Source of the DNA: Chitinophaga sancti
GTDB taxonomy: Bacteria; Bacteroidota; Bacteroidia; Chitinophagales; Chitinophagaceae
DNA length: 64,000 nt
Reading direction: 5' to 3'
Assembly: GCF_034424315.1 (NCBI RefSeq)
Contig: NZ_CP139972.1
Coordinates: 8,068,501 to 8,132,500 of the forward strand
Position numbers and translations under genes: made by a program. Shown piece after piece: positions 32,226 to 41,711 of the stretch; the first letter of the stretch is position 1, and each line of letters opens with the position of its first letter. A model generated the notes under the pieces. That model was not told where the DNA came from and searched no databases. It worked only from the letters and a program-made list of their open reading frames with translations.

Positions 32226-32265
32226 CGAAAAAAATGGGGCCCTGCTTAGTGTGCAGGAAGCCCCG
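32226..32265 (-). terminator. Terminator overlapping the end of the AarF-like gene
   Basis: On the minus strand GGGGC-tt-CCTGC, a loop containing the stop codon, then GCAGG-gcCCC and ATTTTTTT. It separates the TetR-AarF pair from the two-component genes. Confidence 0.7.
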
Positions 32266-33547
32266 TTTTAATATTCGCTTTGAGATCGCTTAGAATAGAA
32301 TACAAGCCGAAGTAGGTTCTGTTCACATACAGGCTATGCCTGGACCCACGCGCTACTTTCGATTCTTTCACTTCTTTCAGGTTGGCTACATAATCCATAT
32401 AAGCATAGATCTCCTGGAAATAACGTTCATCGCCAAAATCAAATTCCGGTACTGTGAACGGCAGTGTCAACATGTCGATCATCTTCTGGAACAGGGTAGA
32501 GAAAAATGCAATTTCTTTCTCCGAGTCCTCAGGATGGATCATTTCCAGGCTGGTATAAATTTGTTTCCGTCGCTCCTCGTCTTTCAATATCTCTTTATCC
32601 GTGAGCAGGAAATAATTGATATAAAAGTCTTCCGGTATCTCCTTGATACATCCGAAGTCGAAGATGCCGATGGTGCCGTCTTCCCGCATGAGGAAATTGC
32701 CCGGATGAGGATCTGCGTGCACCTTTTTCAACTGATGTACCTGGAACTGGTAAAAATCCCACAGCGCCTGTCCGATCTTATTCCTGGCCTCCTGAGATGG
32801 ATTTTTAAGTAAAAACTCCTTCAGGTGGTAGCCCTGGAGCCAGTCCATGGTAATGATCTTTTCGCTGGACAGTGCCGGGTAATAGTTTGGGAATACCAGG
32901 TTTGGAATATGTGCGCAAAGACTGGATACTTCCATCGATCGGGTCAGTTCCAGTTTGTAATCTGTTTCTTCCAGCAGTTTGCTCTCAATCTCATCAAAGT
33001 ACTTGTCCATATCCACCTCGTTCATACCTACTATGCGCATGGCAAAGGGCTTCACGATGCGGAGATCGGATTTCACACTGCTGGCTACCCCGGGGTATTG
33101 GATTTTGATGGCCAGTTCTTTGCCCCATTTGGTTGCTTTATGTACCTGCCCGATGCTGGCGGCATTGGCAGCCTTTACATCGAAGGTGTCGTACAGTTCT
33201 GCGGGTGTTTTGCCTAAGGTCTTGACGAAGGTATTGACCACCAGCGGGCCTGAAAGGGGAGGGGCGCTGTACTGCGACATCGCAAACTTATCAGTATAGG
33301 CCTTGGGCAGCATGCCCTTATCCATACTCAACATCTGCGCTACTTTCAGTGCACTGCCTTTCAGGTTGCTGAGCGTGTCGTAAATATCTTCCGCATTGTC
33401 AGCATGAAGTTCTTCCCTGCTGATACTGGGATCAATCAGTTTCTTGGTATAGTGTTTCAGGTAATTGGTTCCAACTTTCAATCCTGTGGTCACAAAACGA
33501 CTCGCTCTTTCCACTTTTCCCGTAGGAATATTAGTTTGCTCTTTCAT
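32246..33547 (-). CDS. ABC1/AarF (UbiB-like) atypical kinase
   Basis: 433-residue protein-kinase-like ATPase of the ADCK/UbiB family. Visible landmarks: KGSALKVAQMLSMDKG corresponding to the KxGQ-type N-terminal extension, AASIGQVHKATKWGKELAIKIQYPG (A-rich loop in place of the usual Gly-rich loop, plus the catalytic Lys), VHADPHPGNFLM (catalytic loop) and IFDFGCIKEI (metal-binding D). The family is linked to quinone synthesis and lipid handling, but many bacterial members are uncharacterised. It follows a TetR gene by 15 nt, a co-transcribed pair. Confidence 0.9.
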   Translation of the reverse strand: MKEQTNIPTGKVERASRFVTTGLKVGTNYLKHYTKKLIDPSISREELHADNAEDIYDTLSNLKGSALKVAQMLSMDKGMLPKAYTDKFAMSQYSAPPLSGPLVVNTFVKTLGKTPAELYDTFDVKAANAASIGQVHKATKWGKELAIKIQYPGVASSVKSDLRIVKPFAMRIVGMNEVDMDKYFDEIESKLLEETDYKLELTRSMEVSSLCAHIPNLVFPNYYPALSSEKIITMDWLQGYHLKEFLLKNPSQEARNKIGQALWDFYQFQVHQLKKVHADPHPGNFLMREDGTIGIFDFGCIKEIPEDFYINYFLLTDKEILKDEERRKQIYTSLEMIHPEDSEKEIAFFSTLFQKMIDMLTLPFTVPEFDFGDERYFQEIYAYMDYVANLKEVKESKVARGSRHSLYVNRTYFGLYSILSDLKANIKTGLPAH

Positions 33548-33562
33548 TACCTTTTTTCTCCT

Positions 33563-34189
33563 CTACTTCTTGGTGAACATAAATTTGCCGAAGTCCAGTA
33601 TACTGTCAAGCGTACCCGAGCTGATGAGCTGGAAACTGAGGTTCACAGCTTTCTCGATCGCGGCGTCTGTCAGCTCAAACTTTTCTGAATCATCTTTGAT
33701 CCAGTAGTTCAGCACGAAGAGCGCCTGCACCCAGAAACCATGTACGTATTGACTGGAAATGAATTTTCTTTCTTTTACTTCGCCGGACTGATAACCTTCC
33801 TGGATCAGGCCTTTGGCATACTCGTAAAACGCATCTTTGAACTTTTCCAGCCTGTTTTCATGATAACCGGGAATATGGAATTGTTCTTTCTGCAGCAGAA
33901 TGTAGCTTCTGTCTTCTTTCAGTTTCTGTACCCAGAGGAAGTAGAAGGTGAGGAGCTTTTCGCGGGAAGAATAGCCCAGATAGGTATCGTCAGCTCTCAG
34001 CTTATCAAGTGTATCTGTAAAGAAGGATAACCAGATGTCTTTTTCGACCGCATCGAAGGATGCATAACTATCGTAAAAGGTACTTTCGGAAAGACCTAAT
34101 TGCTGACAGAATATGTATACAGAAACTGGTTTTTTCCCGTTTTCAAGCCAGTAATTTTTATAGGCTTCGCGAATGAGTTTATTTTCCAT
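33563..34189 (-). CDS. TetR family regulator
   Basis: 208 residues. The N-terminal helix-turn-helix is IREAYKNYWLENGKKPVSVYIFCQQLGLSESTFYDSY (positions ~5-41, given in part), followed by an all-helical ligand domain. It leads the TetR-AarF pair and its promoter carries an inverted repeat between the -33 and -7 boxes, so autoregulation is likely. The HTH sequence is divergent from classical TetR, as usual for the Bacteroidota 'TetR plus ABC1 kinase' pairs. Confidence 0.8.
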   Translation of the reverse strand: MENKLIREAYKNYWLENGKKPVSVYIFCQQLGLSESTFYDSYASFDAVEKDIWLSFFTDTLDKLRADDTYLGYSSREKLLTFYFLWVQKLKEDRSYILLQKEQFHIPGYHENRLEKFKDAFYEYAKGLIQEGYQSGEVKERKFISSQYVHGFWVQALFVLNYWIKDDSEKFELTDAAIEKAVNLSFQLISSGTLDSILDFGKFMFTKK

Positions 34190-34209
34190 GATTCAGGGTT
34201 TAAATTGTC

Positions 34210-34238
34210 CAAAATGCCTTCCAGGCAGGTATATCAAA
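34210..34238 (-). promoter_or_regulatory. TetR-AarF promoter with an internal operator-like palindrome
   Basis: Minus-strand TTTG (34235-34238) and GCATTTTG (34210-34217) are 17 nt apart. Between and partly over them lies TGCCT-tcc-AGGCA (34215-34227), well placed for a repressor dimer. Confidence 0.5.
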
Positions 34239-34273
34239 TTTACGATAGAAAGGCAATATGAATTGTTAATATC

Positions 34274-36913
34274 TTATAGCTTGTTTATATCCATGACAGT
34301 CAGTACCTTGCTCCTGGTCAGCACGATGAATTCTCCTCTCTCACTACCTTCTATTACTGATTCCGGCTCTTCTTCCAGCCTGATCTCATGCTCCAGTTTC
34401 AGGTAGGCGCCATCCACTTTGAAAATACTGGCCAGCTGGTCACCCACTGCTACCACATAGCCTCCGGGAATCCAGGCCATAGACACTACCCGGTGAGATA
34501 CCGGCACGGGGGCCTCAATGATGCCCATTTCCTGCTTATTAACCATGATGGTAATCAAGCCCATTTTTGTCAGGCCAAACAAAACGGTGGATACCATCGG
34601 TACTGCAGCCAGCATATAAACAGGAGGTGCCGGTTGCAGACAGGTACAGTTTCCCTTTTCATCTGAGCAATATAAGGTGCCCTCCAGCAGGAAATAATAG
34701 TATCCACCCCGCTGGAAAATAGTTGTTGGCTGTGGCCTGTCTTCAGAAAGGATGCTGGCATTATCTAATGTACAGGTATACTGGCTGTCCAGCTCTCCAT
34801 CCCCAGTAAAATGCCAGATCCCTAATGTGTGTTCATTGAGGGCAAACTGGGTCACAGCACCGGCTACTTTTGCAACGAAGCCGATTACATGCTGCTGCAG
34901 GAAATTGGGGAAACTCACACTTATTCCATATTTAAAATGCGAGTTTGCGGGCAGGATTTTCGGCTGATCTTCAAGGTCATTTTCCTGGTTCAGGTAAACC
35001 ATCAGCCTGTTGGTTTCCGGGAAACCGCTTACAATGTATTCAAACATCGGGATCAGGGGCATCGGCCATAGGTACTGTTCTATTTCAAACTCAGGGCTGA
35101 TACGCAGCAGGTAAAATGAATGTACATTGATACCGATGATGAACAATTGCAGGTTATGCCGGCACATACCTGCCCAGGTAATACCGGGAGGCAAATTGAT
35201 CCGTCTGCCGTTCACCTTTTTCTTTGATGGGGTCAGTACAGTACCCTTGTAGCGGAACAGGTCGGCTGGTAGTTGTTTATCATCCGGCAGCAACTGTTTC
35301 AGTAAAAACAGGTGCTGGGTATTTCCATGTTTTACCTGGTCACTGATGATGTGTATGCTAAGATCGGTAGTGGTTTGTTTTACAGCATGCGCGGTATGCT
35401 TATTGTTTACAACCAGCATCACCTGCAGGAACGCGGTCAGTTGTTCAGGACTGCTTTTCTGGTATACTTTCCTGATGTGCAATGGCAATTGCTCAGGTGT
35501 ATGTTTGTTCACCACATCAAAGTACTTATCCAGGTAATCGCCCGGGCGGTTAAATCCGTTCCATCCCCTGTACAATAAGCGCAGGGCTTCGTCAGGGGCA
35601 TTCAGTTTTTGCTCCAGGATGAATGCTGCTTTCATCAGGTCATTTTCCTGCTGGGCAGCCAGTACACTCTTCCTGTAATAATTGCCGGCCAGGTCTGCCT
35701 GTTCGAGTTTTACATACAGGTCACCCACCTTTTCAAACATATCCAGCTCCTTATAAATTTCGATCGCTTCCAGCAGTAAGCCTCCCTGTACCAGGCATTC
35801 TGCTGCCGGCAAAGGTCTGTTCAGGTAATCCTTGTATAAGGCAGCCGCCTCTCTGAAAAACCCTCCCTGCACCAGTGCTTTCGCTGCCAGGTTATAATCC
35901 TGTAAAAGGTGTGCATAGATATAGGCAGCCTGTTTGTAATCTTTTTTCTCTATAGCCTGCTGGGCAGCAAGCATATATTTTTTGTGCAGTTGTTCATAGT
36001 ACCTGTTTACATCCCAGGCATCCACAGGGCCACCGCCACCAGCCAGGCCACCAAGCGTGAAATGTGCATCTTTTTTGGATAAAGAGGTAGATGGAGGTGC
36101 TATGCCTCTGCCGGCATGTTGGGAGCCTAAGGGGATGGCATATTGTAAAGCCTCGCCCAGGTTCTCGTCGAACATGTTGAGCAGGCGTTCCAGTTCTTTA
36201 TCTCTTTTTTCCTGCAGGTTTTCCAGCTGATGTTGCATCCACTGGTATACGCCGTTGCGCTCCTTATTTTTTCCTCTGCCTATCAGCCGCATGAATGCTT
36301 TGAGCAAAGCTGCTTTTATTCTTTTAATCCCTTTCAGCGGCGGTGCATCCATGGGTATTTCATTCAGGGGCCTGGTCTCTACGCTGTTCTTCAGCATGTC
36401 TATCACCGGTGCTTCTTCTTTTCTCCGTACGTTGATCATACGCAAGGGGGCCATAGCTGGCATACCCGGATGCGCCATATCCCATGAATGCTCAATAAGT
36501 GCCGGCAATTCCAGCAGGTCTTTGAGTGATACCAGGTCTGCTGCTGTAAAACCAAAGAAGCCTGCCTGTGGATGCATGACCTGCCATTCCCATACCAGCA
36601 GATCTGCCATCTCGCTGATACTGAGCGCCGGCAATAACCTGGCATGAACAGGTATCAGCAGTTTCCTGCCAATGATCGTATAGGGATGTGCGATACTATC
36701 TGCAGCCGGAATATGTTTGGGGTGAAATACGACCATCATACCCACAGGGGCCATGCTGGATTTACTTTCCGGCAATAGCATACAGGTGAGTGAACCCGGG
36801 GGTACATCCCATCGCTGGATTTCGGCAAACCACTCCGCAGGAGTATTTCCCCTGATGTAAGCGCCCTGTACAGGATGACAAACGGATGGATCATATGTAA
36901 GTTGCAATATCAT
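34274..36913 (-). CDS. MoxR-vWA-associated solenoid / beta-propeller (bpX-type) protein
   Basis: 879 residues, last gene of the five-gene ternary operon. From N to C: a globular domain (1-180), a basic linker (KGIKRIKAALLKAFMRLIGRGKN begins near 194; part quoted), a charged helix, the segment GEALQYAIPLG (about 253-263) and a Gly-rich GGLAGGGGPVDAWDV (about 288-302) typical of this group, then TPR-like helices at about 302-470 (YKQAAYIYAHLL, FREAAALYKDYL, LLEAIEIYKEL) and a beta-rich C-terminal half (540-879) consistent with propeller blades. No enzymatic motif. It probably scaffolds or selects targets for the MoxR ATPase. It overlaps the upstream gene by 4 nt. The propeller is inferred from strand pattern, not from a blade signature. 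Confidence 0.7.
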   Translation of the reverse strand: MILQLTYDPSVCHPVQGAYIRGNTPAEWFAEIQRWDVPPGSLTCMLLPESKSSMAPVGMMVVFHPKHIPAADSIAHPYTIIGRKLLIPVHARLLPALSISEMADLLVWEWQVMHPQAGFFGFTAADLVSLKDLLELPALIEHSWDMAHPGMPAMAPLRMINVRRKEEAPVIDMLKNSVETRPLNEIPMDAPPLKGIKRIKAALLKAFMRLIGRGKNKERNGVYQWMQHQLENLQEKRDKELERLLNMFDENLGEALQYAIPLGSQHAGRGIAPPSTSLSKKDAHFTLGGLAGGGGPVDAWDVNRYYEQLHKKYMLAAQQAIEKKDYKQAAYIYAHLLQDYNLAAKALVQGGFFREAAALYKDYLNRPLPAAECLVQGGLLLEAIEIYKELDMFEKVGDLYVKLEQADLAGNYYRKSVLAAQQENDLMKAAFILEQKLNAPDEALRLLYRGWNGFNRPGDYLDKYFDVVNKHTPEQLPLHIRKVYQKSSPEQLTAFLQVMLVVNNKHTAHAVKQTTTDLSIHIISDQVKHGNTQHLFLLKQLLPDDKQLPADLFRYKGTVLTPSKKKVNGRRINLPPGITWAGMCRHNLQLFIIGINVHSFYLLRISPEFEIEQYLWPMPLIPMFEYIVSGFPETNRLMVYLNQENDLEDQPKILPANSHFKYGISVSFPNFLQQHVIGFVAKVAGAVTQFALNEHTLGIWHFTGDGELDSQYTCTLDNASILSEDRPQPTTIFQRGGYYYFLLEGTLYCSDEKGNCTCLQPAPPVYMLAAVPMVSTVLFGLTKMGLITIMVNKQEMGIIEAPVPVSHRVVSMAWIPGGYVVAVGDQLASIFKVDGAYLKLEHEIRLEEEPESVIEGSERGEFIVLTRSKVLTVMDINKL

Positions 36914-39234
36914 GTCAATTTCAGATGATCTATGTAAGGTTGGATGTATGATTCATAAAAAGTATGCGCGGGTATGAGCCCCGCATTTTTTTCACCTGTA
37001 AAATATTGGTAACCGCAACAGGCACCATCAGCTGCCCAGCAGGCAGTGGGCTTGTTTTGTATCATGACCAGCGTAATTTCCCGCACGTTCGGATCCTGGC
37101 TGCGCAGGTGGAGTAAGCCCCTGGAGTCCATCCATGCCTCCACGCTATTGGTCAGTACATACCTGGTAATGCGGATCTGTGTTCCCGGAATCGTACTCTC
37201 CTGGCCGTTAAGATTCGGAACGATATTATTTACCGTCGTCCAGCTTTCAAACGATAACTTGTTTGTATGGTGACGCAGTTCCATATGGTTGATGGCCAGT
37301 CTGCCCGAAGGACTTACTTTGATACTTTTTACCTGCTTATACATATTGTATCCGCAGTTGATGATCTTCTTCAAAATCCTTAAATGCTCTGCCCTGGCCA
37401 TTGGATCTTTCGCACCTGTATACCTCTGTCCTGGTTGGATCTGTAATGTATCAACAGGGAGCCTGTATGATTCCCGTTCATCGGTGATGTAGAAGTTTTT
37501 GTCGTCGTAAATTACTTTGACCATTCCTTTCAATACAAGGTTAATCACATGATGCGAGCAGGTTCCTATACTTGTATTCAGGTAATACAGGTGCAGTGCT
37601 TCCTTGTGATTGAGCAATACATAAATGGTACCCTGTTCACTATGTCCAAATGCGTAGGCGTTGGATTTGGGCAGATCATTGCTGATCTCTTTCGCGCCAT
37701 TGGCAACAGATTTCCAGTACAACAAGCGATGATCTTCTGTAATCGCTACACCGCCAAAAACGCCGGCATTATAGTAATAATAATGCAGTTGCATGGAGCT
37801 GAACGGGAAATACAGGGGTGCTTCCTGCTGATGTAAAAATGCTGGTAAACCATGTGCCGCCGGCAATATATTTGTCGTTGTAAGTATAGAATCCAGGTCA
37901 TACACTGCGTGATTCAGCAGGTGCCGGTGACCTTTGGTATAATGAAAGAGCTGTACCTTGCCTGCCCTGTTTACGAGGATCAGGTAACCATTGCATTTGC
38001 GGATCAAAGCAAAAGCTTCCTGGAAAGAAGCGGTATGAAAAAGCTGTTCATCTGTTATCAGGAAGAATTCCTGTTGTTGCTTTTGCAATACATTTTTTGC
38101 AAAAGCCGTTAAGCCGGCAGCACTATTCAGTTCTGGTGACAACAATTCCAGTGCACTGCTTACACCTGCTTTGGTGCCCAGTTGCAGGGGCGTGTAGTCA
38201 TAACCAGTCAGCGCATAAGCCGGCATTTCTCCTTTTTTATTTTGAAGGGAACAGGCCAGTGCCGCAGCCATGGCCAGTAAGCGGGGCGTTCCCCACATTT
38301 TGATACTGGTATCTACCAGTAGAAAACGTTCCGGCTGATAATCGGAGGGCAGTTGTTCTCTGCGTAAATAAAGTGCTTCGTTATTTGCCAGTCTCACCAT
38401 CAGCGACAATTCATCATGCGCTAATTCACTTAGTAATAGGCGGTCGAAATTCCCCCTGTTACTGATGTCGGACACACCACCAAATAACTGGTCACTGCTT
38501 CCATGTGCATGCATCGGAATATGCAGGGCGGCAATCATTTGCCTGGTCAGTCTTGTAAAACCAGTTGTAGCAGGATCACTTTCCAGTTCTGATAAGAGAT
38601 CTGTTTGTGGTGGCTCTGGAATTACTACCGGCAAGGGTTTGGGCAGTTCACTTACGCCCGTTTGCAACTTCAGGAGCAGTTCATCTCTGCTGCCGATTGC
38701 CTTGTAAATAGCTGCGAGGTATTGCAGGTCTACTTCAACAATAAATTTGCTGAGGGGTACAGGTGCCAGGATATTGCTATCCAGTCTGCCACTATTGAAA
38801 TTATCTAAGATGTTTCCTGCTATTTCACTGCTCACGCTGGGCGCAACAGCAGAACACAGGGTTTGTAATAAATGTGTTTTTTTGCCACCGAGCCAGCTGC
38901 GGTCAGGCAGGGAACCCAGTATTTGCAGCAGGTGAAAGGCTTCCAGTATCCAGGGATGATCCTGCTGGTAGTTGATGTTTAGTTCCCGGAAGATGTCGGT
39001 CAAAATGCGCTGTGTCCTGTGGGGATCCTTTTTGGCCGTAAGGAGTAGCAGCAGTGCTCCCAGAGGAGGAAAGCAATCTTTCAGTTCCGCCAGTACTTCC
39101 ATGAGCGATGACCTGTAAACCAGGGTCGTTCCATCCCGCCATTCAATCACTTCCCCACCATCTGCCCAATGCCAGAAGTAATCGTGTGCCGATTTGAAAT
39201 AGGCGGTGGTTTCAAGGGTTTGCTTATAGTACAT
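36910..39234 (-). CDS. vWA domain protein of the MoxR-vWA-beta-propeller system
   Basis: 774 residues. A helical N-terminal part (1-240) leads to DISNRGNFDRLLLSELAHD and RLANNEALYLRRE (about 256-293), the block that precedes the vWA domain in MoxR-linked proteins. The vWA begins at RFLLVDTSIKMWG: the MIDAS DxSxS is changed to D308-T-S310-I-K312, so metal binding may be weakened. Next come LAMAAALACSL and EFFLITDEQLFH, the fourth-strand Asp region. The C-terminal ~330 residues are beta-rich and propeller-like. In these systems the vWA protein is the adaptor that couples the ATPase to its client. It overlaps the neighbours by 11 and 4 nt. Confidence 0.75.
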   Translation of the reverse strand: MYYKQTLETTAYFKSAHDYFWHWADGGEVIEWRDGTTLVYRSSLMEVLAELKDCFPPLGALLLLLTAKKDPHRTQRILTDIFRELNINYQQDHPWILEAFHLLQILGSLPDRSWLGGKKTHLLQTLCSAVAPSVSSEIAGNILDNFNSGRLDSNILAPVPLSKFIVEVDLQYLAAIYKAIGSRDELLLKLQTGVSELPKPLPVVIPEPPQTDLLSELESDPATTGFTRLTRQMIAALHIPMHAHGSSDQLFGGVSDISNRGNFDRLLLSELAHDELSLMVRLANNEALYLRREQLPSDYQPERFLLVDTSIKMWGTPRLLAMAAALACSLQNKKGEMPAYALTGYDYTPLQLGTKAGVSSALELLSPELNSAAGLTAFAKNVLQKQQQEFFLITDEQLFHTASFQEAFALIRKCNGYLILVNRAGKVQLFHYTKGHRHLLNHAVYDLDSILTTTNILPAAHGLPAFLHQQEAPLYFPFSSMQLHYYYYNAGVFGGVAITEDHRLLYWKSVANGAKEISNDLPKSNAYAFGHSEQGTIYVLLNHKEALHLYYLNTSIGTCSHHVINLVLKGMVKVIYDDKNFYITDERESYRLPVDTLQIQPGQRYTGAKDPMARAEHLRILKKIINCGYNMYKQVKSIKVSPSGRLAINHMELRHHTNKLSFESWTTVNNIVPNLNGQESTIPGTQIRITRYVLTNSVEAWMDSRGLLHLRSQDPNVREITLVMIQNKPTACWAADGACCGYQYFTGEKNAGLIPAHTFYESYIQPYIDHLKLT

Positions 39235-39931
39235 GGCGCAGGGTTTCGGCAGTGAGCCTTACGGCGCTGCGGGTGACGTGAAGAAAGGAGGTATCCGGGA
39301 GCATTTCATACTGACCATTGACATGAAAGAGCAAAAAATGTGTTCTGGCGGCTTCCATTTTTTCTATGAGCAGTGACCGGATCACCGGTGGATCGAAATC
39401 ATATCCCGCAGGCATCAGGAGCCTGTCTCTGAGTGTATACGAAGTACCTGGTATTGGAGGTAGCGGCACCCCGGCTACCAGCACGCGCGCATTAGCAGAA
39501 GCTGCAAAGCGCAGGTGTCGCAGCCTGATCTGTGGTGCGGAAGCAATGTATGTTTCCAGTACACGCATTTCCGTTAGTATGGCAAAACTTTCTTCGTCAC
39601 GCTGGCAGGGAGCTAATTTTACAGCATGTTTGGAAGTGACATAAGCCGGCAGACCGGATGCTGGCAGACTTACCGGAATAAATTCGGTCAATGGTTGCCA
39701 TTCCAGGCCCGGCAATGTCAGGTCTGGCGTCAGTGCCCCATGGACAAAGAGCCGGTTAAAGGCATCCAGTTTCCAGGTACGCAATGCGGGTAACTGGCGA
39801 AAAGCATGGTCCGCCATCCCTTTTACCCAGATCTGATCCTGGTACCATGCTGCCATCATATCTGTACGTGTACGCAGCTGCGCAAGCACTTTGATGTCAG
39901 CGGGCAATAATGTAATTACACTTTCAGTCAT
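39224..39931 (-). CDS. Small partner protein of the ternary system
   Basis: 235 residues, no signal peptide or membrane helix. Not recognised by a motif, but position between the MoxR ATPase and the vWA gene, with overlaps of 1 nt (TGATG) and 11 nt, ties it to the complex. The visible pattern is N-terminal helix, several short strands (FIPVSLPASGLPAYV, RVLVAGVPLPPIPG) with Pro-rich turns, and a C-terminal HFLLFHVNGQYEMLP. It probably corresponds to one of the 'bpX' domains that accompany MoxR-vWA pairs; which one would need a profile search. Confidence 0.6.
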   Translation of the reverse strand: MTESVITLLPADIKVLAQLRTRTDMMAAWYQDQIWVKGMADHAFRQLPALRTWKLDAFNRLFVHGALTPDLTLPGLEWQPLTEFIPVSLPASGLPAYVTSKHAVKLAPCQRDEESFAILTEMRVLETYIASAPQIRLRHLRFAASANARVLVAGVPLPPIPGTSYTLRDRLLMPAGYDFDPPVIRSLLIEKMEAARTHFLLFHVNGQYEMLPDTSFLHVTRSAVRLTAETLRHVL

Positions 39932-41079
39932 CAGTTAGTCTGCATGATCTTTTCCCACAATTGATCTATCGGTGCTAATACAAAGTTCTTCTGTGTATCG
40001 TTATTGATCCATTCGCAGCGGTCATTAAGGTAGCGAAGCCTGTCTTTGATCAGTGCTCTTTCGGCAGGAGAGGTGTCAGCAGCTTCCCATTGTGTGGTCA
40101 TGTGCTGTACTTCCTTATAGATAGCATCTGCATCAGGTGCACTGTTGATAACGGCTCTTGGGTGAGCGCCGGGTTGTTGCTCATCGTTTGCCACAAGGGC
40201 AGTATTGACGATGGCCGCAATGAGTTCCTGCTGTTCTTCTGTATCCCAGATATAACGCAGCACCCACATATCCGAGAGGATAGCGGTATTTCTTTTGCAG
40301 AGGACAGCGCTGGCAGCAATGAGGCGTTGTAATTTCACGGCTCTTCTGTCAGAGATCTGGATACCTGCATTGCGCAGTTGTTGTATCAAAGTGATATAGG
40401 CTGCTCTGATACCAGAGAGGTCTATGGTGGTGGTAATGTTTTGCAGGGTTCTTACATCATCCGCACTGATCCTGGGAGGTGTAGCGCTATCCGATTGCTC
40501 CAGTTTCCAGCCTGCCTGCAATACCTTTTCCAGGTCCGCAGGATCTACGTTGTCACAATGTACCCTGAGCAGGAAACGGTCAAAGAGCGCCTGCAGTGCT
40601 TCATCTTCGGGCAGGTGGTTACTGGCGCCGATAAAGAGCAGGGCAGGAAGTGCTTTGGTTTCCTTTCCTCTTCTGAATATCTTTTCGTTGAGTGCCATGA
40701 GCAGGCTGTTGAGGATCGCGCTGTTGGCATTCAGTAGTTCGTCCAGGAATACCAGGGAGGCTTCGGGCAGCATACCTTCGGTGTTGGTCACGAGGTCTCC
40801 TTCCCGCAGCTTGCGGATGTCAAAAGGTCCAAACAGCTCATTGGGTTCAGTGAATCGGGTTAGCAGGTATTCGAAGGTTTTACCTTCCAGTAAGCTGGCA
40901 AGCGCACGTACCATGGCACTTTTAGCAGTACCCGGAGGGCCAAGTAAAAAAAGGTTCTCCCTGCCGGCGAGGCAAATGCCCATCAGGTCTATGATGTCAT
41001 CTTTTCCAACAAAAGTCTTTTTCAGGTGCTGTAGGACATCGTTGAGCTTATCTACCAGCGGGGTTGTGGGTAAGGTCAT
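39931..41079 (-). CDS. MoxR-type AAA+ ATPase (RavA-like)
   Basis: 382-residue AAA+ ATPase, the motor of the system. Walker A is GPPGTAKS (47-54); Walker B is SLVFLDELLNAN with D113/E114; sensor 1 lies in LLFIGASNHLPEDEALQALFDRF and the arginine-finger segment follows; ISDRRAVKLQRLI is the sensor 2 region. The RavA-like features are the FTEPNELFGPFDI insert and NEKIFRRG. MoxR proteins act with vWA partners as chaperone-like remodelers that insert metals or assemble complexes. Its start overlaps the previous gene's stop (ATGA) and its stop overlaps the next start (TGATG). Confidence 0.93.
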   Translation of the reverse strand: MTLPTTPLVDKLNDVLQHLKKTFVGKDDIIDLMGICLAGRENLFLLGPPGTAKSAMVRALASLLEGKTFEYLLTRFTEPNELFGPFDIRKLREGDLVTNTEGMLPEASLVFLDELLNANSAILNSLLMALNEKIFRRGKETKALPALLFIGASNHLPEDEALQALFDRFLLRVHCDNVDPADLEKVLQAGWKLEQSDSATPPRISADDVRTLQNITTTIDLSGIRAAYITLIQQLRNAGIQISDRRAVKLQRLIAASAVLCKRNTAILSDMWVLRYIWDTEEQQELIAAIVNTALVANDEQQPGAHPRAVINSAPDADAIYKEVQHMTTQWEAADTSPAERALIKDRLRYLNDRCEWINNDTQKNFVLAPIDQLWEKIMQTN

Positions 41080-41711
41080 AATATAAATTCATTAATAACT
41101 GTATCGAACTGAGGCCAGAGTATAGCAGCATGTGTTCCCAGGGCTGCCTGTACAAATGGCAGGTTTTCAGGCAAGCGGCATTGAGACAGGTTCCTTGCCT
41201 GGATAATCCTGTCAGTATATGCCTGCCTTAATGAAGGATGCTCATTAATGGCAGACAGGTCTACCTGTTCGGTTAAAGGAATGGCGGCGGCTGAAAATGG
41301 CCATTGATGAGCGGTTTGATAAAACCGGGCGATCAATGGATCTTCCGGTGAAAGGCCTTTGGCCAGCAGGAACAAATCCGGCAGATAACGCAGGGTCAGG
41401 TCTGCGGAATAGATCGCTGCAGCAGTTCTTTCACCTTTATAAGCGGGTAAATGGGTTTCCAGTAATGAAGCGTCCAGGTTGCGTAATAATATGAACTGTA
41501 CGGTGGTGTACAGGTAGCCTGCAGCCCAGCGTGCTGCTTCCATATCCAGTGCAGGAGCGGTATACGGCATCTCGCGGCAATCATCTTCATAATATTGTTG
41601 CAGGTGAATAGCAGCTGTACGCAGGTCGGCTTCTTCAAAAGAGAGCAGATCCGCGGCAACAGTTACATTTCCTTCGTTAATCAGGCCAGATATGAATTCA
41701 GTTAGTTCCAT
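41076..41711 (-). CDS. First gene of the ternary operon, helical partner protein
   Basis: 211 residues, all-helical in appearance and without known motifs (LTEFISGLINEGNVTVAADLL, AAIHLQQYYEDDCREMPY quoted in part; TVQFILLRNLD). It is the promoter-proximal gene and overlaps the MoxR ATPase by 4 nt, so it is made in step with it. It may be the alpha-helical member of the bpX set. No effector domain (nuclease, protease, TIR, membrane pore) is visible, which matters because conflict systems usually have one. Confidence 0.6.
   Translation of the reverse strand: MELTEFISGLINEGNVTVAADLLSFEEADLRTAAIHLQQYYEDDCREMPYTAPALDMEAARWAAGYLYTTVQFILLRNLDASLLETHLPAYKGERTAAAIYSADLTLRYLPDLFLLAKGLSPEDPLIARFYQTAHQWPFSAAAIPLTEQVDLSAINEHPSLRQAYTDRIIQARNLSQCRLPENLPFVQAALGTHAAILWPQFDTVINEFIL

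Follow-up and report, generated by a model that had tools for sequence, protein, structure and literature searches.

MoxR-vWA systems with beta-propellers are known as a class from comparative genomics, as subsystem 4 of Kaur et al. 2020 (PMC7159879). In the parts of that paper concerned with it, the class is called "enigmatic" and is described as being without conventional effector modules; it was counted in 118 organisms, 44 of them multicellular, and a role in biological conflict was proposed for it. It is presented there as ternary, with extra linked genes in "a subset" of cases. The vWA protein carries long helical N-terminal and beta-rich C-terminal regions in about 62% of cases, the third component has a highly variable N-terminal region and a membrane-spanning segment, and the P-loop variant GXXXTAKS, also found in FtsH ternary systems, is often present. 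Passages of later papers take up the wider MoxR-vWA idea, and our search of open-licence papers found no experimental study of the beta-propeller type. In the present study we analysed a copy of this system in Chitinophaga sancti, at positions 34274-41711 of a 64,000-nt stretch (the window) of an 8.42-Mb single-contig genome.

Characterised MoxR-vWA pairs, as summarized in PMC7159879, act in assembly, maturation or metal insertion, and one perhaps in peptide degradation. For the NorQ-NorD pair of Paracoccus, the relevant passages of PMC13036017 report that a finger of NorD (residues 403-448) enters the NorQ pore and that its deletion stops iron insertion. In the corresponding passages of PMC9976466, finger-in-pore binding is proposed for MoxR-vWA pairs in general, and a single beta-strand is described as linking the NorD finger and the residues of the metal ion-dependent adhesion site (MIDAS). 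The order of finger before MIDAS within NorD was deduced from residue numbers and passages of these two papers.

Composition of the operon

The explanation that we favour, with a probability of about 0.55 for the whole, is that the locus encodes a complete five-part remodelling machine that would work by a finger-in-pore mechanism and be aimed at variable, probably foreign, targets. It joins what the analysis establishes (family membership, gene order, two predicted folds and the conservation pattern) to a ring, a finger in its pore, a membrane contact, a five-protein complex and a type of target that we infer. The features of the locus are as follows.

41076-41711, minus strand: gene 1, bpX4 protein (211 aa); Pfam bpX4, 1.1e-57, 195 bits
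39931-41079, minus strand: gene 2, bpMoxR AAA+ ATPase (382 aa); Pfam bpMoxR, 3e-103; RavA in PDB, 3.1e-42
40918-40941, minus strand: Walker A motif GPPGTAKS, the P-loop variant GXXXTAKS of Kaur et al.; in 29/29 of the genus set and 70/72 of the wider set (the sets share some genomes)
39224-39931, minus strand: gene 3, bpX2 protein (235 aa); Pfam bpX2, 9.8e-56
36910-39234, minus strand: gene 4, vWA protein with bpX0, finger block (putative), divergent vWA, partial propeller and bpX1 (774 aa); Pfam bpX0 and bpX1, AlphaFold2
38671-39132, minus strand: bpX0 helical domain (residues 35-188); Pfam and AlphaFold2 model
38938-39039, minus strand: hypervariable helical patch of bpX0 (residues about 66-99); alignment and shuffle test
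38335-38517, minus strand: conserved block DISNRG..DRLLLSELA (residues 240-300), candidate MoxR-pore finger; invariant columns and predicted local distance difference test (pLDDT)
37870-38334, minus strand: divergent vWA domain with MIDAS-like D308-x-S310-x-K312; AlphaFold2 model and alignment
37243-37818, minus strand: partial beta-propeller of about four blades (residues 473-664)
36922-37149, minus strand: bpX1 domain (residues 696-771); Pfam
34274-36913, minus strand: gene 5, third component with bpX3, linker, TPR-like solenoid and propeller (879 aa); Pfam bpX3, 6.7e-42, and AlphaFold2
36416-36907, minus strand: bpX3 domain (residues 3-166); Pfam
36278-36328, minus strand: basic amphipathic helix of the linker (residues 196-212), at a place that in some relatives holds a stretch resembling a membrane span; hydrophobic moment 0.62, charge +6, low-confidence helix in the model
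36011-36040, minus strand: conserved linker GGGGPVDAWD (residues 292-301); translation, kept in the family alignment
35240-36007, minus strand: TPR-like alpha solenoid (residues 303-558); AlphaFold2 model
34277-35221, minus strand: seven-bladed beta-propeller (residues 565-879); AlphaFold2 model

A sequence-only reading of the stretch had taken the locus for a complete MoxR-vWA-beta-propeller member, and this proved correct, as all five products match Pfam families of the class. The non-ATPase proteins all scored far above the Pfam cut-offs, with 195 bits for bpX4 (cut-off 27), 190 bits for bpX2 (cut-off 24), 77 and 61 bits for bpX1 and bpX0 in the gene 4 product (cut-off 27 for each) and 144 bits for bpX3 (cut-off 27), the only family that Pfam names in the gene 5 product. 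The gene 2 product reached 343.7 bits with bpMoxR PF20030 (cut-off 27). This model is not specific alone, since it also passes in 12 of 14 control genomes (bpX2 and bpX3 in 0/14), and the evidence for gene 2 therefore rests on the score margin and the neighbours. Both Walker motifs of this ATPase are intact, as had been noted (A, GPPGTAKS; B, LVFLDEL). A search of the locus with PADLOC-DB 2.0.0 gave only two weak ATPase matches (best 0.0013) and no strong match to a described anti-phage model. Judged by its protein families, the locus is a member of subsystem 4.

Gene order and distribution

A scan of GTDB with the vWA alignment confirmed 153 stretches, the best 80 loci of which were kept as a cross-phylum set (Bacteroidota, Planctomycetota, one Acidobacteria bin and one unassigned bin). 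The set is anchored on the vWA protein of this subgroup, and more distant variants of the class lie outside it. All five genes were found in 64 of the 80 loci, and in 54 of the 57 that are away from contig ends (1500 bp upstream, 1000 bp downstream); the genes present kept the same order in 80/80, two loci showing the vWA gene only. The exceptions away from contig ends are Niastella soli (L192), L214 (vWA only) and L221 (vWA and bpX3 only). The Niastella soli locus, where the vWA and bpX3 domains lie in one open reading frame (ORF) of 1153 aa and MoxR and bpX2 are missing, is probably decayed. An apparent bpX4-MoxR fusion in L201 (689-aa ORF) was rejected as a mere upstream extension of the MoxR frame.

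Within Chitinophaga, bpX2 and bpX3 were each detected in 29 of 79 genomes, the identical 29, and the order bpX4-MoxR-bpX2-vWA-bpX3 was found at all 29 loci (two genes unseen in the ORF map were recovered by tblastn, and at one locus the last gene is broken). The order is thus conserved beyond this strain, both in the genus and across phyla, and on this basis the unit is better described as five-component than as ternary. In a sample of the phylum, bpX2 was present in 10 of 395 genomes, the window's genome among them. The nearest named vWA protein is that of C. silvisoli (83%).

The five ORFs overlap in series by 4, 1, 11 and 4 nt, exactly as the sequence-only reading had stated. These overlaps had been taken as a sign of balanced translation and of one complex; they are real, but constitute weak evidence for stoichiometry, because the exact lengths are common only to the window and its four nearest genomes. 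The junction spacings differ in the other 24 genus maps, the first junction ranging from an overlap to a gap of 251 nt (the spacings are approximate, the ORF starts being the first possible ones, and three junctions gave no value). The conserved order is the stronger evidence.

The vWA protein and its conserved block

AlphaFold2 monomer models were made for the vWA protein (mean pLDDT 81) and the third component (mean pLDDT 84). Translation and model of the former confirmed that the block DISNRG..DRLLLSELA precedes a vWA-like fold. Aligned across 82 relatives, the protein has its four best-conserved 10-residue blocks at residues 251-290 (mean pairwise identity 0.78-0.94), all four with a pLDDT of 32-49 in the monomer; residues 240-300 hold 21 of the 50 columns that are invariant among 82 sequences. 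The motif pattern is present in 104 of 109 proteins of the genus and wider sets (some genomes occur in both), and the block is recognisably alike in Planctomycetota and the Acidobacteria bin. Such extreme conservation in a segment with no fold of its own in the monomer model suggests that the block folds on contact with a partner. Since its position matches that of the NorD finger, which plugs the NorQ ring, we read it as a putative pore finger of the MoxR ring, by this analogy and by its conservation.

Neither the vWA protein nor its vWA region had a credible match in a sequence-profile search of the PDB. Foldseek searches with the whole models were dominated by propeller proteins; the vWA-protein matches had TM-scores below 0.3, no MoxR-partner vWA was among the matches listed, and the result is not informative. 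Two related Chitinophaga genomes (L051 and L056) encode vWA proteins of 597 and 602 aa without bpX0; their sister genome, G067, is without the whole operon.

The third component

The gene 5 product had been read as a solenoid, a GGGGPVDAW linker and a beta-rich half, and the model bears this out, as a bpX3 domain, an alpha solenoid, the linker and a propeller of 28 strands (seven blades of four). A profile search of the PDB with this protein gave a single weak match, to the LST8 propeller (0.0017). Column identity among 26 genus members was 0.445 for bpX3, 0.232 for the linker and 0.234 for the propeller. The linker varies, and bpX3 does not stand out; the N-terminal variability reported by Kaur et al. 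is a tendency within the class and not a requirement. The window's linker has no membrane span by hydropathy (maximum 0.73) and contains the predicted amphipathic helix; among relatives, some linkers are strongly hydrophobic (KD19 up to 2.96) and others are not (23 of 68 members printed).

The third component of L045 is 572 aa long, and the 103 bp that separate its gene from the next hold no remnant of a propeller. Homologues of 549-599 aa account for 12 of the 84 found, and the propeller-less protein may be a natural form. At another locus (L043:4777-7183, draft genome G037) the gene is split into three ORFs, by decay or assembly error.

Divergence and inheritance

Mean column identity in the genus was 0.74 for MoxR (29 rows), 0.54 for bpX4 (28 rows), 0.48 for bpX2 (28 rows), 0.37 for the vWA protein (27 rows) and 0.35 for the third component (26 rows); values within these proteins were 0.64 for residues 223-300 of the vWA protein and 0.23-0.25 for the two propeller regions. 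The identities of the four nearest genomes to the window's genome are 99% for rpoB, 93-98% for the three flanking genes compared, 91-95% for bpX4 and MoxR, and 80-84% for the bpX2, vWA and bpX3 products. The last three differ by 16-17% from those of the nearest relative, and the flanking genes by 2-4%. The median ratios of nonsynonymous to synonymous change (dN/dS), over 13-14 pairs of which some share genomes, were 0.16 (vWA), 0.14 (bpX3 protein), 0.13 (bpX2), 0.10 (bpX4) and 0.067 (MoxR), compared with 0.043-0.060 for six flanking genes.

Divergence is concentrated in hotspots, namely the bpX0 patch, both propellers and the linker between bpX3 and TPR; hotspots at the extreme N-terminus in some pairs were discounted on account of differing start choices. 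The bpX0 patch (residues about 66-99), predicted to be an ordered helix (pLDDT about 88-91), is a hotspot in six of the eight bpX0-bearing pairs, two of the six sharing the window's genome. Between the window and its nearest relative 26 of 30 residues of the patch differ, with better conserved sequence on both sides, and none of 500 shuffles reached this value. For the pair W000-L059 synonymous change in the patch is saturated, and no ratio could be obtained.

The operon occupies three sites in the genus: A (19 genomes, including the window's), B (8) and C (2). In an rpoB tree of 76 genomes, from which G046 (short ORF), G064 and G072 (no hit) were left out, the clade containing site A has 21 members, 19 of them with the operon. 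The two operon-free members, G042 and G067, retain both flanking genes, 365 and 624 bp apart; all five genes are absent, and no remnant of the operon was detectable at these empty sites. A second tree was built from four of the five proteins, concatenated, for all 29 loci of the genus and 25 of the 80 cross-phylum loci. It groups the site-A operons in a single clade (local support 1.0) whose sister is site B (0.973), with site C elsewhere. At site A, then, inheritance is vertical and in place, with occasional absence of the whole unit; sites B and C represent separate events or relocations. Among the 14 remaining, more distant site-A genomes, 12 encode vWA and bpX3 proteins with only 33-45% identity to the window's (rpoB 96.7-98.5%). 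Replacement in place by foreign operons was considered and rejected, since the site-A operons form a single clade with full support.

Proposed mechanism

The MoxR protein would assemble into a hexameric ring, and the DISNRG-LLLSELA block, folding only on contact with it, would plug the pore as a finger, as NorD does in NorQ. Through ATP turnover, the vWA protein may then be rotated or stretched against the bpX3-TPR-propeller protein, the latter perhaps resting on the membrane by its amphipathic helix. In this scheme bpX2 and bpX4 would be constant core subunits, motor and finger would stay constant, and bpX0, the two propellers and the linker would serve as fast-changing surfaces for target recognition. 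The output would be remodelling or sequestration of the bound target, since no known enzymatic effector domain is encoded. The machine would most likely serve to recognise targets that vary and are probably foreign or invading. The constant motor with its variable parts, the patchy presence and the lack of a client gene favour a system directed at variable targets. We consider the chances of a conflict-type use to be about even, and an anti-invader role plausible. The strictest version, an obligate five-subunit AAA+ machine without an enzymatic effector, which draws specificity from the bpX0 patch and propellers through the near-invariant finger and has forced remodelling or trapping as its output, is tentative.

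This class has been predicted since 2020, and the complete copy described here makes its function directly testable: strains of the genus are in culture, close relatives offer naturally empty sites, a candidate finger is at hand and variable patches are mapped. An immune-like role, if real, would mean a defence machine driven by chaperone force alone.

Alternative explanations

Several results weigh against the explanation given above. Vertical inheritance in place, as seen at site A, is unusual for a mobile defence system. No gene-level positive selection was found, dN/dS being far below 1 in every gene (purifying selection). Weaker hotspots occur in MoxR near residues 195-227 (three pairs) and in bpX2 near 100-126 (one pair), so the split into constant and variable parts is not absolute. 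The candidate finger is modelled by AlphaFold as weak helices, and the NorD finger is described in passages of PMC9976466 as stabilised by beta-sheet. D308 is invariant in 82 aligned vWA proteins and position 310 is T, S or C (often G in planctomycetal copies), but the third MIDAS ligand, at position 312, is Lys or Arg in 80 of the 82 and the canonical DxSxS is absent; the metal site is probably lost or altered, which makes NorD-like metal-dependent binding unlikely. The third component of Chitinophaga tropicalis (L045:12873-14591, also L149) is without a propeller.

We compared 119 flank proteins (a draw of 120 out of the 245 eligible ones at 43 chosen loci, less one contig-edge ORF) with 119 from 20 random Chitinophaga stretches, using PADLOC at 1e-8. 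There was no sign of defence enrichment, with 29 models matched in the flanks vs 95 in the controls; these are counts of models, not proteins, single proteins matching many models (DpdF, PtuA), and the control is from Chitinophaga only, the flanks from several phyla. The operon was without a match in phage records, and none was confirmed in viral contigs. With inheritance at a fixed site, purifying selection, no sign of defence neighbours and no phage copy detected, a mobile defence system of the usual kind becomes less convincing.

These same features suit the strongest alternative, possible though clearly less probable, in which the five proteins serve as an accessory chaperone for a single variable complex of the cell, be it surface, envelope or respiratory, which they would mature or supply with a cofactor, like RavA-ViaA, NorQ-NorD and CbbQ-CbbO, with no conflict involved. 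Fixed-site vertical inheritance, purifying selection and the lack of defence-gene context fit such a chaperone, and assembly, maturation and metal insertion are the tasks of characterised pairs in the passages of PMC7159879 cited above. Against it stands the lack of a linked client gene. The 786 flank proteins of the 80 loci fell into 538 clusters, the large ones being confined to site A of Chitinophaga or to Niastella. Outside these groups 23 clusters extend to at least three loci, none of them to more than 9 of the 80. Ten of the 23 were scanned, and these recurring cross-genus families are mostly common ones: response regulator, histidine kinase, ABC ATPase, sigma factor, aminotransferase, FMN reductase, HSP70, AraC regulator, DUF1963 and Tpt1/KptA phosphotransferase. 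The survey for conserved partners that had been suggested found the five genes kept together and, outside same-site clusters, no flanking family common to more than 9 of the 80 loci. The patchy presence (29/79 and 10/395 genomes) and the divergence of the bpX2, vWA and bpX3 products, set against that of the flanks in the nearest relative, also count against an accessory chaperone.

It is very unlikely that the operon extends to the downstream TetR (33563-34189) and ABC1-kinase (32246-33547) genes, as regulators or servants of the system: both adjoin it in the same orientation at site-A loci, but a TetR homologue (1e-30) occurs in 77 of 79 genus genomes, 29 of them with the operon, and the neighbours at sites B and C are different. 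A chance cluster of unrelated genes with superficial motif likeness, in favour of which nothing was found, is refuted by the strong Pfam scores of all five products and the gene order shared across phyla.

Other features of the neighbourhood

In a few genera the operon lies near genes for HSP70 (L167, L177, L184, L196), DUF1963 (L175, L183, L186, L197) or Tpt1/KptA (L174, L175, L200); with 3-4 loci per family, these are too few to indicate a partner. A scan upstream of the operon for promoters and terminators found nothing above chance. Before the TetR gene (window 34190-34273) there is a TAAATTTG element on the reverse strand, which we take to resemble a Bacteroidota promoter consensus. It is also found in both genomes with an empty site, so TetR and ABC1 kinase are probably transcribed as a unit from a promoter of their own. 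The single plasmid match was in Hymenobacter yonginensis (L242:6459-14295), where five consecutive genes of matching sizes surround a vWA homologue (34% identity); in the annotation four encode hypothetical proteins and one an AAA ATPase, and homology was tested for the vWA gene alone.

Comparison with known systems

The locus resembles subsystem 4 in (i) its five protein matches, (ii) the GXXXTAKS P-loop, (iii) a divergent vWA followed by a short propeller of about four blades, (iv) bpX0 and bpX1, which correspond to the helical N-terminal and beta-rich C-terminal regions of the vWA protein, (v) a third component with TPR and propeller (by predicted fold) and (vi) the lack of a conventional effector. 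It differs from the class, as described in the relevant parts of PMC7159879, in that bpX2 and bpX4 are as constant as the other genes in the subgroup sampled here, bpX3 is fairly conserved while the linker and C-terminal propeller vary most, and the window's third component is without a membrane span by hydropathy. With NorQ-NorD, as portrayed in passages of PMC13036017 and PMC9976466, it shares a MoxR AAA+ ATPase and a vWA partner with an N-terminal domain, a linker and, before the MIDAS strand, a segment where NorD carries its pore finger. In contrast to NorD, the vWA domain is not C-terminal, being followed by propeller and bpX1, and its MIDAS is degenerate; there are also three further proteins, and no linked client enzyme was seen in the flanks.

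RavA of E. coli is the nearest solved MoxR by sequence (PDB profile search), but the MoxR protein is not RavA (172.6 bits with the NCBIfam RavA equivalog model, 681 required), and the vWA protein gave no credible sequence match in the PDB. In common with the FtsH ternary systems of Kaur et al. 2020, as far as the cited passages describe them, the family has the P-loop variant and matches to ivWA PF19997 in the vWA region (12 of 35 members, best 1.1e-4; the window's own copy without a match); it differs in that no FtsH-type protein is encoded among the five products and five neighbours scanned. The earlier comparison with RavA-ViaA is therefore a fair analogy, but NorQ-NorD is the better mechanistic template, and in part of the family the vWA region resembles the vWA of the FtsH ternary systems. 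To the class as known, this locus adds the constancy of five genes, the reading of the conserved block as a putative finger, and the variable bpX0 patch.

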